Assembly (NCBI GenBank): GCA_003230015.1
Contig: QIGO01000003.1
Span: 1-42,894, forward strand
Direction of reading: 5' to 3'
Length of the DNA stretch: 42,894 nucleotides
Origin: Alphaproteobacteria bacterium
GTDB lineage: Bacteria > Pseudomonadota > Alphaproteobacteria > UBA6615
A model generated the notes under the pieces. The model saw only the letters and a program-made list of their open reading frames with translations, made no database searches and was not told where the DNA came from. Within the stretch, counting starts at the first letter, position 1. Every line of letters starts with the position of its first letter. This document shows positions 15,829-30,550 of the stretch, one piece after another. The position numbers and the translations under genes were made by a program.

Positions 15829-18228
15829 GTGAGCACAGCCAAGAACCGCCGCTGGTTACGCTGGTTGCGCTACATTGGCATCGCTGTCTTCCTCCTGCTG
15901 CTGACCGGGGTCACCGGCGCCTATATCTGGCTCCGCGGCTCCTTGCCCGATTATAACGGCAGCGCCTCCATCGCCGGCCTGACGGCCCAGGTCACGGTCG
16001 GCCGCGACGCCGACGGTATACCCAGCATCTTCGCCGCCAACACCGAGGACGCCTATCGCGCCCTCGGTTACATTCACGCCCAAGACCGTTTTTTCCAAAT
16101 GGAGATGACCCGCCGCGTCGGCGCCGGTCGCCTCAGTGAGGCGCTGGGCGAATCCACCTTGGCCATAGACCGGCTCATGCGCACCCTCGATTTCTATCGC
16201 CTTGCCGAGCAGTCGGTGGAGCAGATGGCACCGGACGCCCGCGCCGCCCTCGACGCCTATGCCCAGGGTGTCAACGCCTGGCTAACCGGCGATTCCCCGC
16301 TGCCGCCCGAATTTCTTATTTTCCGGGCAACTCCCGAACCGTGGGTTGCCGCCGACAGCGTCGTCTGGGGCCGCCTGATGGCATTCCAGCTCTCCAACAA
16401 TATGAGCGACGAGCTTCTCCGCGCCCGCATGGCGGCCATTCTCACACCCCAACAGATCGGCGATCTCTGGGCCCAGGACCCCCCCGGAACCGCCGCCACC
16501 CTGACCGACCTTGCATCGGTCCTGCGGACCCTGCCCCTGCGCGAGATCGCCGCCACGCTGGCCGCCGTCCAGGCACCGGCCAGTGCCTCCAACGAATGGG
16601 TCGTCGCCGGCGCGCGCAGCAAGACCGGGATGCCCCTGCTGGCCAACGATCCCCATCTGGGTTTCAGCGCCCCCGGCCTCTGGTACCTCGCCAGGATCGT
16701 CACCCCCGACGCCGAAATTGTTGGCGCCACCGTCCCCGGTGTGCCTTTCACCGTGGTTGGCCGCAACAGCCGCATCGCCTGGGGTTTCACCACCACCCAT
16801 GCCGATACCCAGGACCTTTTCATCGAGAGGATCGATCCCGCTAACCCGGCCAACTACCTGACCGAGAACGGCAGTGTCCCTTTTGTCGTCCGCGAGGAGT
16901 TCATTCAGGTCAGGGGGCGCGACGACCCGGAAAAACTCGTCGTCCGCGCCACCCGCAACGGCCCGGTTATTTCCGATGTCAACCGCGGCGCGGCACAAGC
17001 CGCACCCCCAGGCCATGTCCTCAGCCTCGCTTTTTCCGCCTTGTCGCCCCAGGACAGCTCGGCCGAAGCCCTGTTCCGGCTCAACCAGGCCCAGGACTGG
17101 CCGGATTTTGTCGATGCCATGCGGCTGTTCGATTCCCCCATGCAGAATGTCGTTTATGCCGACACCGCCGGCAACATCGGCTTTTACGCCCCCGCCCGCC
17201 TGCCCGTTCGCCGCGCCGGCGACGGCCGGCTGCCATTGCCGGGCTGGACCGGCGAGAATGGCTGGGATGGCGAGGTGCCATTTGCAGACCTCCCCAATGC
17301 CTTCAACCCGCCTTCGGGCCAAATCGTCAATGCCAACAACCGGCTGGAAAGTAGCGGCGGCAAACCTTTCATCGCCTACGACTGGCCGTCAAGCTACCGC
17401 GCCGACCGCATAACCGAACGTCTCGCCGCCACGCCCAAACACGATGCCGACAGTTTCGCCGCCATACAAACCGACGTGACAACCCCGCTTGCCCGCACCC
17501 TGCTGCCGCCGCTCCTGGATTTGGGCGCAACCATTGAGGATGAGCGAAGTCACGAGATCCTCGGCCTGCTTTCCATCTGGGATGGCGACATGGGCCGCCG
17601 CCGGCCCGAACCGCTCATTTTCATGGCCTGGCTCGATGCTCTCGGCCGCCGCCTTTATGCCGACGAACTCGGCGACTTGGCCGCGGACTTTGCGCAATTG
17701 CGGCCGCGCACCCTTGAGTTTATCCTCAGCCGCCGCCCGCAATGGTGCGATGATGTTACCACTGGAGCCACCGAGACCTGTAGTGTTCAAGTCCAGGCTG
17801 CCTTCGCCGACGCCATGTCCTTCCTCACCGATCGCCTTGGCGATGACTGGCGAAACTGGCGCTGGGGCGATCTGCACCGGGCCCGCTTCAGCCATCAGAT
17901 CTTCGGTCGCATCCCCTTGTTGAACAGACTGAGCGACACGTCCATTGCCAGCGATGGCGGCAACTTTACCATCAACCGGGGCGTCTATATGTCCGGCAAC
18001 GGCGATAATGCCTTCCGCCACATCGTCGGCGCCGGATACCGGGCGGTCTATGATCTGTCCGATCTGTCCAACTCCCGTTTCATCATCGCCACCGGTCAGT
18101 CCGGCCACTTTCTCTCGCCCTTCTATGGCAACCTCACCGAGCGCTGGCGTGATGGCGAGTATGTCACCATCGGCGGGGATCGGGAGCCGGCGGCCACACT
18201 GACTCTGCGCCCCCAGGACAGCCAGTGA
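15829..18228 (+). CDS. penicillin acylase family Ntn hydrolase
   Basis: YIHAQDRFFQMEMTRRVGAGRLSEALG, candidate nucleophile region ASNEWVVAGARSKTGMPLLANDPHLGFSAPGLWYLARI, GRNSRIAWGFTTTHADTQDLFIE. Confidence 0.92.
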   Translation: MSTAKNRRWLRWLRYIGIAVFLLLLTGVTGAYIWLRGSLPDYNGSASIAGLTAQVTVGRDADGIPSIFAANTEDAYRALGYIHAQDRFFQMEMTRRVGAGRLSEALGESTLAIDRLMRTLDFYRLAEQSVEQMAPDARAALDAYAQGVNAWLTGDSPLPPEFLIFRATPEPWVAADSVVWGRLMAFQLSNNMSDELLRARMAAILTPQQIGDLWAQDPPGTAATLTDLASVLRTLPLREIAATLAAVQAPASASNEWVVAGARSKTGMPLLANDPHLGFSAPGLWYLARIVTPDAEIVGATVPGVPFTVVGRNSRIAWGFTTTHADTQDLFIERIDPANPANYLTENGSVPFVVREEFIQVRGRDDPEKLVVRATRNGPVISDVNRGAAQAAPPGHVLSLAFSALSPQDSSAEALFRLNQAQDWPDFVDAMRLFDSPMQNVVYADTAGNIGFYAPARLPVRRAGDGRLPLPGWTGENGWDGEVPFADLPNAFNPPSGQIVNANNRLESSGGKPFIAYDWPSSYRADRITERLAATPKHDADSFAAIQTDVTTPLARTLLPPLLDLGATIEDERSHEILGLLSIWDGDMGRRRPEPLIFMAWLDALGRRLYADELGDLAADFAQLRPRTLEFILSRRPQWCDDVTTGATETCSVQVQAAFADAMSFLTDRLGDDWRNWRWGDLHRARFSHQIFGRIPLLNRLSDTSIASDGGNFTINRGVYMSGNGDNAFRHIVGAGYRAVYDLSDLSNSRFIIATGQSGHFLSPFYGNLTERWRDGEYVTIGGDREPAATLTLRPQDSQ

Positions 18229-19472
18229 CGGAAACATCGAAAACCATCGATCTTGCGGCTATCCGCGATGCGGCGGCGGCAATCCATGGCCAGGTCATCG
18301 CCACCCCCACCCTCACGATCCCCAGGCTTAACGAGCATGCCGGCGCGAGGCTCCACCTCAAACTTGAAAATTTCCAGCACACCGGGTCGTTCAAGGCCCG
18401 TGGTGCGGCCAACAAGCTTCGCACTCTATCTCCCGATGCCCGGGCCAGCGGCATCGTTGCCTGTTCTGCCGGCAACCATGCACAGGGTGTTGCCTACTTC
18501 GCCCAGCGTCTCGGCATACCGGCCACCATCGTCATGCCCATACCCACGCCTTTCACCAAAATCGAGCGCACCCAGGCACTTGGCGCAAAGGTTGAACTTC
18601 ATGGAGAAAATCTAAGCGATTCAGAGGTTTACGCACATAAGCTCGAGCAAAGAAAAAACCTCATCTTTATCCACCCCTATAACGACCCGTTGATTGTCGC
18701 TGGCCAGGGTACCGCCGGTCTTGAACTCATCGCCTCGGTCCCCGATCTCGATCTCATCATCGTGCCCATTGGCGGCGGCGGCCTGATCGCCGGCATCGCA
18801 ACGGCGGTCAAAGCCTTGCAGCCGGGTATCGAAATCATCGGCGTCGAGGCCGCCCTTTATCCATCCATGTCTGAGGCCATCGACCAGCGCCCGCCGACCG
18901 CCCATGGCGCCACCCTGGCCGACGGCATCGCCGTCAAGGTGCCGGGCCGGCTGACCCGCCCCATCATCGAGGCCTTGGTCGACGACATTGTCCTGGTCGA
19001 CGAGCCCACCCTTGAATTGGCCGTGCAGACCATGGCCGACACCGCCCGCATTGTCGCCGAAGGCGCCGGTGCGGCCAGTCTTGGCGCTGTCCTGGCCGAC
19101 CCCACACGGTTCAAGGGCCGCAATATCGGCCTTCTGGTTTCCGGCGGCAACATCGACCGCCGCCTGCTTGCCTCGGTCCTGCTGCGCGGACTGGCCCGTG
19201 AGGGCCGCATGATCCGTGTCCGTGTCTTGATCGATGACCGCCCGGGCGCCCTGGCCCGGATTACGGCCCAAATCGCCGATGCCGGCGGCGATATTGTCGA
19301 GATTATCCACCAGCGCCTGTTCTTCGACCTCTCGGCCAAACAGGCCGATTTGGATATCGTCATTGAAACCCGGGGCGGCAGCCATGCCGATGAAATTATC
19401 GCCCGCCTTGTGAAAGCCGGCTTCCAAGCCACCCGGCTCAGTTTCCGCGCCGCTGACAATGCTTCGCGCTAG
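18225..19472 (+). CDS. ilvA: threonine ammonia-lyase with C-terminal ACT domain
   Basis: LENFQHTGSFKARGAANKL, VACSAGNHAQGVAYFA, VPIGGGGLIAGIA, LVSGGNIDRRLL, ACT-like C-terminus (RVRVLIDDRPGALARITAQIADAGGDIVEI). GTG start overlaps the upstream stop. Confidence 0.9.
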   Translation: MTETSKTIDLAAIRDAAAAIHGQVIATPTLTIPRLNEHAGARLHLKLENFQHTGSFKARGAANKLRTLSPDARASGIVACSAGNHAQGVAYFAQRLGIPATIVMPIPTPFTKIERTQALGAKVELHGENLSDSEVYAHKLEQRKNLIFIHPYNDPLIVAGQGTAGLELIASVPDLDLIIVPIGGGGLIAGIATAVKALQPGIEIIGVEAALYPSMSEAIDQRPPTAHGATLADGIAVKVPGRLTRPIIEALVDDIVLVDEPTLELAVQTMADTARIVAEGAGAASLGAVLADPTRFKGRNIGLLVSGGNIDRRLLASVLLRGLAREGRMIRVRVLIDDRPGALARITAQIADAGGDIVEIIHQRLFFDLSAKQADLDIVIETRGGSHADEIIARLVKAGFQATRLSFRAADNASR

Positions 19473-19516
19473 CGTGTTTCCAGGAAAAGCGGGGACCGCT
19501 TTTCCTGGAAACACGC
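19472..19516. repeat. perfect 21-bp inverted repeat with GGA loop overlapping the ilvA stop codon
   Basis: GCGTGTTTCCAGGAAAAGCGG-GGA-CCGCTTTTCCTGGAAACACGC; arms 19472-19492 and 19496-19516. Confidence 0.9.
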
Positions 19517-26974: not shown

Positions 26975-27000
26975 GGCGAGCCTCTCGGTTCCCGATCAAC

Positions 27001-27269
27001 CTAGTGGATAAAATCTAACAGAGGGTACCCATACGACGGCTTTGCGAGTTCACCCGGCGAGGCGCGAGATACGCCGTGATGCCCTCGCATCACAAGTGTC
27101 GCGCAACGCGGCCGGTGAGCTCGCAAAGCCGCCCTTCGGGTCCCGTATCCCGGTATCTGGGGGCGTCAAGACCCTCGACGATGCCTTGGCATCGCCCGCA
27201 CGCCTTCTCCTGCCCAGATACCGGGATACGGGATCGTATGGGTACCATCTGTTAGATTCTATCCACCAG
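27001..27269. other. E1: four-way-junction (cloverleaf-like) intergenic element
   Basis: Outer arms 27001-27036 / 27234-27269 (33 of 36 complementary); hairpin B 27037-27131 (terminal 18-nt arms, 17 of 18 Watson-Crick plus one T-G); mini-hairpin CCC-TTC-GGG 27132-27140; hairpin C 27141-27233 (perfect 21-bp arms). No unpaired nucleotides at the junction. Confidence 0.85.
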
Positions 27270-27312
27270 GGTGTATCAGTTTGTCGGGCCTAGCTCAACG
27301 TCCACCGGGCGG

Positions 27313-29556
27313 CTATCCGAAAGGGGCAGGTCCGAACCCGTTGGTCCTTGGGAATCCGGCCGGCGGCAACCGGCCGCTTTGTGCGCGTTTGCCCAGCCAC
27401 CCCTGCAGCTGATCGGCACCGAACGTCCGCCTTCGCTCGCCCGTCTGCACGCTCAGACCGTCTTCCAGCTTGAACATCCGCACATCGCGCAGCCCGCCCT
27501 TGGCAAAACGCTGCAGGCGCACGCCTTTGCCGCGTCCCATCTCAGGCAGGTCGTCTTTATGGAATATCAGCAGCTTACGGTTCTCGCCCAGGGCCGCCAC
27601 ATGGTCGCCCTCCGCCGGCACGCACAGCACCGCCTCGCTGCCGCCGCCGACATTAAGCACCTGACGGCCGCTACGGGTCTGCGCGATCACGTCTTTTTCC
27701 GACACCAGAAAGCCGCGCCCATCGGCCGAAGCGACAAGCAGCTGCCGCTCCGGGTCATGCACGAACAGGGCAACGATATCGGTGTCGTTGCCGAACTCGA
27801 GCATCAGCCGCAGCGGCTCGCCATTGCCCCGGCCGCCAGGCAGTTTGTCGGCCCCAAGGCAGTAGAAACGCCCGTTTGTCGCGAATACCAGCAATTTGTC
27901 GGTGGTTTCCGCCGCCACCGCCAGACGGGCCCTATCGCCTTCTTTGTATTTCAGCTCGCCGGCGTCTATCCCATGCCCTCTGATCGTGCGTACCCAGCCC
28001 TTGGCCGAGCAAATAACCGTAATCGGCTCACGCTCGATCATCGCCTCCAGCGGCACCACGACGGCATGCGGCGCGTCGGCGATCTCGGTCCGCCTTTCCC
28101 CGCCAGGATAATTGACGCCGAAACGCGCCTTCATTTCCTTGATTTCTTGGGCCAACCGGGCTGACTTTTGGCCCTCATCGGCCAACAGCGCCGTGATTTT
28201 GTCCCGCTCCCCTTCCAGGTCCGTCATCTCTTTGCGGATTTCCAACTCTTCGAGTTTGCGCAACGAACGCAAACGCATGTTCAAAATCGCCTCGGCCTGC
28301 GCCTCGGTCAATTCGAACCGCGCCATCAATTCCTGGCGTGGATGATCCTCCTCCCGGATGATACGGATCACCTCATCCAGATTGAGATAGACCACCATAT
28401 AACCCGCCAGCACATCCAGGCGCCGGGCTATTTTTTCCAGCCGGTGCTCGCTGCGCCGCACCAGCACCACCAGGCGATGGTCGAGAAATGCCTGCAACAA
28501 ACCGCGCAAGGTCATCACCTGCGGCGTCCGATCCGCGCTCACCACATTCATATTGAGGCTGATACGCGTTTCCAGATCGGTCTGCCGAAACAGGCTTTCC
28601 ATCAGCAGGGCTGGCTCTACATTGCGGCTCTTCGGCTCCAGCACCATCCGCAGATCCTCGGCCGACTCATCGCGCACATCCGCCAGCATCGTCAGCTTGC
28701 GCGCATTCAAAAGGTCGGCTATGCGCTCCACCAGACGCGACTTTTGCACTTGATAGGGAATCTCCGTCACCACCACCTGATATTGGCCACGGTTGAGATA
28801 CTCCACCTGCCACTTCGCCCGCACCCGCAAACCGCCACGCCCGGTTGTATAGGCCTCGACGATGGTCTCCCGATCCTCCACCAGGACGCCCCCGGTGGGC
28901 AGATCGGGCCCCGGCATGAATTCGCACAGCTTGGCGATCGATGCGTTGGGATGTTTGAGCAAATACTGCAGCGCGTCGCAGATCTCGCCGACATTATGGG
29001 GCGGAATATTGGTCGCCATGCCCACGGCGATACCCTGCGAGCCATTGGCCAGCAGGTTCGGAAACGCCGCCGGCAGCACCACCGGTTCTTCATTGTCCCC
29101 GTCATAGGTATCCTGCAGGTCGACGGCGTCCTCGTGGATACCCTCCAGCAGCGCCATCGCCACCGGTGTCAGGCGCGCCTCGGTATAGCGCATCGCCGCG
29201 GCGTTATCGCCATCGATACTGCCGAAATTACCCTGGCCATCCACCAGCGGATAACGCACCGCGAAATCCTGCGCCAGCCGCACCATGGCGTCATAGATCG
29301 CCACATCCCCATGGGGATGGAATTTACCCATGACGTCGCCCACGACCCGCGCGCATTTTTTGAACCCCTGATCCGGATCCAGCCGCAATTGCTGCATCGC
29401 GAACAGCAGCCGCCGATGCACCGGCTTCAAGCCGTCGCGCACATCGGGTAAGGAGCGCGACATGATCGTGCTCAACGCATAGCTCAAATAGCGCTCGCTC
29501 AACGCGTCTTTGAATTGCGTCGGCCTGATCTCGAGAGCGACTGCGGAATCGGACAT
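27313..29556 (-). CDS. parC: DNA topoisomerase IV subunit A
   Basis: [72 protein letters not shown]; followed on the minus strand by a C-terminal beta-pinwheel-like region. Start at [14 protein letters not shown] (29556) preferred to 29568. Confidence 0.95.
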
Positions 29557-29647
29557 AATTTTCCTCAAGTTGGCTGCGTCCCATATACGAGCGATGATCC
29601 GAGGCGGTCAACCGCATCGGCCCGAGACCGCTATGATTCTAGCCTTG

Positions 29648-29824
29648 TACCAAGGAGCGCTGATAATGACCCATAGAGACGGCCTACCATGGTTTTCGGC
29701 AAGGCGCGTGGGCTGCGACGATGCGGTGCATCGTAAAGCCCGCGCAACGCCGTCCGAAAGCCTTGGTAGGCCGCCGTTCCGGTCGCCTGCGATCTCTATG
29801 GGTCATTATCAGCGCTCCTTGGTA
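29648..29824. other. E2: four-way-junction (cloverleaf-like) intergenic element related to E1
   Basis: Perfect 32-bp outer arms 29648-29679 / 29793-29824; hairpin B 29680-29773 (20-nt arms, 18 of 20 Watson-Crick); mini-hairpin CCG-TTC-CGG 29774-29782; short hairpin TCGC-CT-GCGA 29783-29792. No unpaired nucleotides at the junction. Confidence 0.88.
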
Positions 29825-30550
29825 TTACACGCCAAACTGTGCCGCCAGCCGCTCCCTTGCCGCCGGCAGCGGCCGGTTCATCGGTCCGAAGACATGCTGT
29901 TGCAGAAAATACCCTGTCAGCCGCAGGCCGTCGCCAACGGCTGCCGCGTCCACATCGCCCCGCCCGATCAGAAATCCCGGCAATGTCAGCAGCTTGTCCC
30001 GGTAATCTTCACCGGCGGACAGACTGACCGCCCGCCCGCTGCGCGGTGAGACATAGGCCAGCATGTCGTTACGCCCGGTCGCCGCGCAGCGGCTGAGGTC
30101 GAGCCCGAACCCCAATTCCGACAGCAGCCCCAACTCCCATCTCACATAAATGCCTGGCCACACCGCGTTTTCATCATCCGCGGCCATGGCGTCGAATAAG
30201 GCGCCCAGACCCACGAACAGCGCCGGATGCGCCTCTCGCTCCGGCAGCGCCAATTCAGCCATGCTGCAGACCGCACTCAACCCGCTGAGCCGCAGCGGAT
30301 CGTCCATCAAGCCCGCCGCATAGGAGCGTTCGGCCTCCAAGGTATAAGTCCCCAGATGCTCGGCAAGACGCGCCCGCCAGGACGCCCGCACCCGTGTACC
30401 CGGCTCGATCAACCCGCGTTTCCTGCGCGATGTCGCCCCATGGACCAGCCCGGCATGGCGGCCATGCGCGGCCGTGAGAAGCTGCACCACCGCCGCCCCC
30501 TCGCCATGGGGCCGGTGACCCAGCACGAAGCCGTCGTCGCTCCAATCCAT
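29825..30550 (-). CDS. recO: DNA repair protein RecO
   Basis: MDWSDDGFVLGHRPHGEGAAVVQLLTAAHGRHAGLVHGATSRRKRGLIEPGTRVRASWRARLAEHLGTYTLE. Confidence 0.93.
   Translation of the reverse strand: MDWSDDGFVLGHRPHGEGAAVVQLLTAAHGRHAGLVHGATSRRKRGLIEPGTRVRASWRARLAEHLGTYTLEAERSYAAGLMDDPLRLSGLSAVCSMAELALPEREAHPALFVGLGALFDAMAADDENAVWPGIYVRWELGLLSELGFGLDLSRCAATGRNDMLAYVSPRSGRAVSLSAGEDYRDKLLTLPGFLIGRGDVDAAAVGDGLRLTGYFLQQHVFGPMNRPLPAARERLAAQFGV

Follow-up and report, generated by a model that had tools for sequence, protein, structure and literature searches.

A 177-bp palindrome between recO and parC is very probably a MITE inserted into the recO stop codon and likely mobilized by an IS630-family transposase

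In the window, the whole stretch of 42,894 nucleotides of DNA from an uncultivated alphaproteobacterium that was analyzed, a long palindrome designated E2 (29648 to 29824) separates recO from parC, and its position raises the question of whether it serves these two genes or arrived between them as a mobile unit. Both genes, recO (29825 to 30550) and parC (27313 to 29568), lie on the minus strand and their identities were backed by Pfam domains. The recO stop codon (29825 to 29827, minus strand; TTA on the plus strand and TAA in sense) directly adjoins E2, and the other end of E2 is 79 to 91 nt from the parC start, depending on whether the ATG at 29556 or the TTG at 29568 is chosen. The abutment to the stop codon, the distance of about 80 to 90 bp from parC and the perfect 32-bp arms had all been described in a sequence-only reading of this DNA, and all three held on reanalysis.

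The arms of E2, a parC-proximal one at 29648 to 29679 on the plus strand (TACCAAGGAGCGCTGATAATGACCCATAGAGA) and an identical recO-proximal one at 29793 to 29824 on the minus strand, are 32 nt each, 100% complementary and 113 nt apart. Between them lie internal hairpin A (29680 to 29773; tip CGATGC...GCATCG), a small junction hairpin, CCGTTCCGG (29774 to 29782), and TCGCCTGCGA (29783 to 29792), the vestige of a second internal hairpin, B. Since the arms enclose a second inverted pair of 20 bp with 90% identity (29680 to 29699 and 29754 to 29773) as well as two tiny hairpins, the whole 177 bp forms one branched palindrome. Its single strand folds with a predicted energy of -121 kcal/mol (z = -13 against shuffles). 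A chance origin is excluded by this fold, by the recurrence of the element in the genome and by the perfect 32-bp inverted pair, which is unexpected in a window of 43 kb.

The commonest intact copy of the family is 261 bp long and consists of two terminal repeats, hairpin B, the 9-nt junction hairpin and hairpin A. In an alignment to this canonical element, 84 bp of hairpin B are absent from E2, the gap falling at the vestige; in the orientation in which the 261-bp copies were aligned, E2 lies on the minus strand, in the same sense as recO and parC. Since several copies of 177 to 183 bp occupy separate sites, the shortened form either was itself dispersed or arose repeatedly. Family members are GC rich and two-hairpin in design, with sizes mostly of 157 to 300 bp. 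Arm positions 7 to 13 form a variable box, GGAGCGC in E2, that differs among copies (GGAGCG, GGATCG, GGTGCG, TCTCG, and AGGTCC) and is normally the same on both arms of one copy. Two mini-forms, both TTA-flanked, were also observed, namely, a palindrome of about 30 bp made of two fused terminal ends (L185:3661-3690) and a 96-bp copy (L064:815-910).

The host genome, a 3.07-Mb draft that is about 75% complete, contains at least eight copies of the family with 74 to 100% identity. Within the family-level set of 24 genomes, the element was present only in the host and in G009, and further carriers belong to unrelated families of the same class (G030 with 34 matches, G219, G327, G210, G303, and G381). 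A DNA similarity search detected the E2 family in 7 of 387 genomes of the class, and a search with the terminal motif in 12 of the 387, the reversed control pattern giving 0 matches. Because the presence is patchy across families, horizontal spread is suggested. In GTDB genomes, 103 matching stretches were found, mostly in Rhodospirillales or Kiloniellaceae MAGs and many of them close to the ends of contigs, where repeats that interrupt assemblies are expected to lie. No match was found in the plasmid collection searched. The terminal motif also occurs on a 1-kb contig binned as Nitrospira (L113), which is probably a binning error and possibly a transfer.

The junction comparison that the sequence-only reading had proposed concerned the empty site and the target duplication. 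In all 20 relatives of the family in which recO was found, the order recO-parC is kept with a gap of 18 to 67 nt and no element, compared to 256 nt at the E2 locus. Across the E2 family, flanks are identical TNA triplets in 44 of the 74 copies with both flanks readable (TTA in 25, TAA in 14, TGA in 4, and TCA in 1), and the inverted combination TTA/TAA was seen in only 7 of the 74. Two near-empty sites were identified by flank comparison, one between L054 and L079 (96 to 97% identity), located at the stop codon of a gene for what, by eye, resembles the DNA polymerase III chi subunit, and one between L078 and L139 (about 77% identity). In length, both sites agree with a 3-bp duplication, although the triplet in question carries substitutions. 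Duplication of TA only was ruled out, since both sites fall short by 5 nt of the length that it predicts and the N is duplicated as well. At E2 itself, the two copies of the target differ: the recO-side one, the stop codon, is TTA and the parC-side one (29645 to 29647, plus strand) is now TTG, a single substitution away, so that 2 of 3 bases match.

Part of the copies without identical flanks is explained by mismatched arms. Boxes differ between the arms in 12 copies, 10 of which lack identical flanks, compared to 20 of the 62 others (Fisher P = 0.002). Differing boxes together with non-identical TNA flanks were seen at L067, L134, L137, L103, L131, L139, and L140. In these short-read MAGs, the mismatched copies have the appearance either of recombinants between family members or of misassemblies, and they may mark rearrangement breakpoints.

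The insertion model also accounts for the abutment to recO, since the recO TAA is the TNA target site, and insertion at stop codons recurs in the family. When each element was excised and genes were called with a simple home-made codon model, 26 of 65 targets coincided with a natural stop codon, and only 6 lay 1 to 60 bp downstream of a stop. For TNA sites taken as controls from these loci, the numbers were 206 at stops and 345 at 1 to 60 bp, giving an odds ratio of 7 (P = 1e-6), or of 9 against TWA-only controls. The targets sit in a GC-rich context, and a mere effect of this context was rejected, as the roughly 8-fold excess over other intergenic TWA sites persisted within GC bins and reached P = 8e-8 in the GC-richest one. 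Beyond TNA, no target-site motif was visible save for a mild preference for a preceding C. The excess may be inflated by the home-made gene caller, by uncalled genes counted as intergenic and by selection against disruptive insertions; the stop-codon association is regarded as real, its cause being either target choice or better survival. Truncation of RecO was rejected as the reason for the abutment, since no clear truncation was apparent; RecO C termini vary, in two relatives the protein stops only a few residues from this length, and the insertion might at most have cost a short tail.

Taken together, E2 is very probably a non-autonomous transposable element, a MITE, that was inserted into the recO TAA as a deletion derivative of the 261-bp element and likely mobilized by an IS630-type transposase. 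It is short, non-coding, bounded by terminal inverted repeats and multicopy. According to the proposed mechanism, E2, a form that lacks most of hairpin B of a two-hairpin, 261-bp element patchily distributed through Alphaproteobacteria, would have entered the recO stop codon with duplication of the 3-bp TNA target. The gene would thereby have kept its stop, and the parC leader and ribosome site would have been shifted about 180 bp downstream. The reading as a mobile palindromic unit, already entertained from the sequence alone, has strong support in the multiple copies, the empty sites, the family duplication and transposase-bearing relatives with like ends.

These relatives point to a likely source of mobility. 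In G185, a 1172-bp element with diverged E2-type ends (TACCAACGGTCATTGATATTGACC / TACCAGCGGCC...) is flanked by TGA on both sides and carries a frameshifted transposase with Pfam HTH and DDE_3 domains, which scored 145 bits with NF033545, the NCBIfam IS630 model (cut-off 100). Homologues in G210, G030, and G303 likewise end in TACCA[A/G], next to TNA; a complete copy in G210 has the flanks TTA/TAA. A further, fragmentary IS630 locus in G030 has the same TACCA[A/G] end and shares inner ends of the GAT...ACCCAT type with G210 and G303. In all, five IS630-family transposase loci with E2-type ends (TACCA...GAT...ACCCAT) were found, all outside the host genome; in that genome, about 75% complete, no transposase with such ends was detected and the NF033545 matches lack them. 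A search of 8 genomes and of the fetched loci revealed no autonomous copy with near-identical ends at a spacing of 0.5 to 3.5 kb. Two apparent candidates were discarded, since the 2.1-kb one in G009 comprises a 297-bp MITE and an independent short palindrome and the 1.3-kb one in L103 resolves into an element of 200 bp and a partial end. A DDE_Tnp_1 (IS4/IS5-type) transposase was also rejected, as the fetched loci with it lack E2-type ends.

From the matching ends, E2 was most likely moved in trans by a DDE transposase of the IS630 family. The textbook target duplication of IS630 elements is TA. As the E2 family has a 3-bp TNA duplication in place of the 2-bp TA, the most suitable description of E2 is that of an IS630-related MITE, an atypical variant and not a typical IS630 MITE.

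The window contains a second palindromic element, E1 (26997 to 27273), between a dctQ-like gene and the 3' end of parC. Its core hairpins are homologous to the canonical core of the E2 family (local score 47 versus a maximum of 29 in 500 shuffles), and its terminal repeats, 40 bp long, are unrelated to those of E2. A common core with different terminal repeats suggests capture by different transposases, and E1 was presumably mobilized by another enzyme than E2. Copies of E1 were found in G000, G219, and G030, with about 30 related matches in G327. Elsewhere in the window, the stop of the ORF at 18225 to 19472 is the site of a perfect inverted repeat (19472 to 19516; 21 bp, 3-nt loop) that looks like a terminator or a REP-like unit.

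The most substantial rival explanation treats E2 as a conserved regulatory RNA or as a terminator within a recO-parC operon, protecting the recO 3' end or attenuating parC. It would fit the very stable fold, the placement between two co-directional genes and the strong covariation of pairs across the family: in 26 canonical copies, both-sided changes affected 49 of 103 pairs, compared to 22 in shuffles and 10 to 17 with slid partners. A single selected RNA strand should, however, favor G-U pairs, and the G-U and A-C cells were about equal (31 versus 28, with pairs predicted from both strands and counts that are not independent events, the copies being related). This symmetry points to maintenance of the stem at the DNA level, for example by template switching that corrects palindromes, or to selection on the RNAs of both strands, over one selected RNA, and the covariation does not demonstrate a regulatory RNA. 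Neither an intrinsic terminator (a GC-rich stem followed by a T run) nor a sigma-70-like promoter was found in E2, and an Rfam search gave no match above the gathering score. Family copies adjoin many different genes, and the 20 relatives do without E2 at recO-parC, which together make this rival improbable. Effects on RNA may nevertheless arise from a MITE as by-products: transcription across E2 would place a very stable RNA hairpin between recO and parC, which by analogy with Correia elements is a plausible RNase III substrate, and protection of the recO mRNA 3' end, raised in the sequence-only reading, is possible as a predicted side effect.

Two other rivals fare worse. A REP/REPIN-like unit moved by a RAYT (Y1) transposase instead of a DDE enzyme would also be palindromic, extragenic and multicopy, but REP/REPIN palindromes are of 20 to 40 bp, lack target duplication and have a linked RAYT gene, and the long perfect terminal repeats, the TNA duplication and the E2-type ends on IS630 loci make this origin very improbable. 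Supercoiling sensing on behalf of parC, by E2 or its topology, is an idea prompted by a long palindrome near a topoisomerase gene; it gained no support and is the most far-fetched of the three, since different copies have different neighboring genes and the element is missing beside parC in the relatives. Reading E2 as a transposon insertion explains the palindrome beside a topoisomerase gene and removes a regulatory red herring. The strand-neutral covariation would also warn that even massive covariation need not imply a functional RNA. It is conceivable, though we hold it to be rather doubtful, that an IS630-type lineage with a 3-bp TNA duplication prefers natural stop codons, where insertion is harmless because the stop is copied, and that the perfection of its stems is preserved at the DNA level, by hairpin template-switch correction or as a folded single-strand substrate, and not by selection on one RNA. 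If the stop preference is true targeting, it would give a bacterial transposon a safe-harbor strategy and might be of use as an insertion tool.

E2 is thus an ordinary MITE in kind, with the TNA duplication, the GC-rich core of two hairpins, the bias toward stop codons and the strand-neutral covariation as its atypical traits; an earlier description may exist, the literature search having covered open-access papers. Among known systems, the Correia elements (NEMIS) of Neisseria have different ends and a different host, are about 105 to 155 bp long, duplicate TA and have no two-hairpin core. Like E2, they are palindromic MITEs, with a terminal TA and transcripts that are RNase III substrates (PMC3049150). 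RUP of Streptococcus pneumoniae resembles the E2 family as a small non-coding intergenic MITE with ends like those of an IS630-family element (PMC2229807, PMC3049150) and is proposed to be mobilized in trans by IS630-Spn1 (PMC2229807). It is 107 bp long and inserts at TA, whereas the E2 family is larger, GC rich and two-hairpin, with a 3-bp TNA target and an excess at stop codons. The BOX repeats of S. pneumoniae, also multicopy and structured, supply the stop codon in 36 genes with no clear protein truncation (PMC3049150); they are built of boxA/B/C modules with other ends and encode the stop in the repeat, whereas with E2 the natural stop is the duplicated target.
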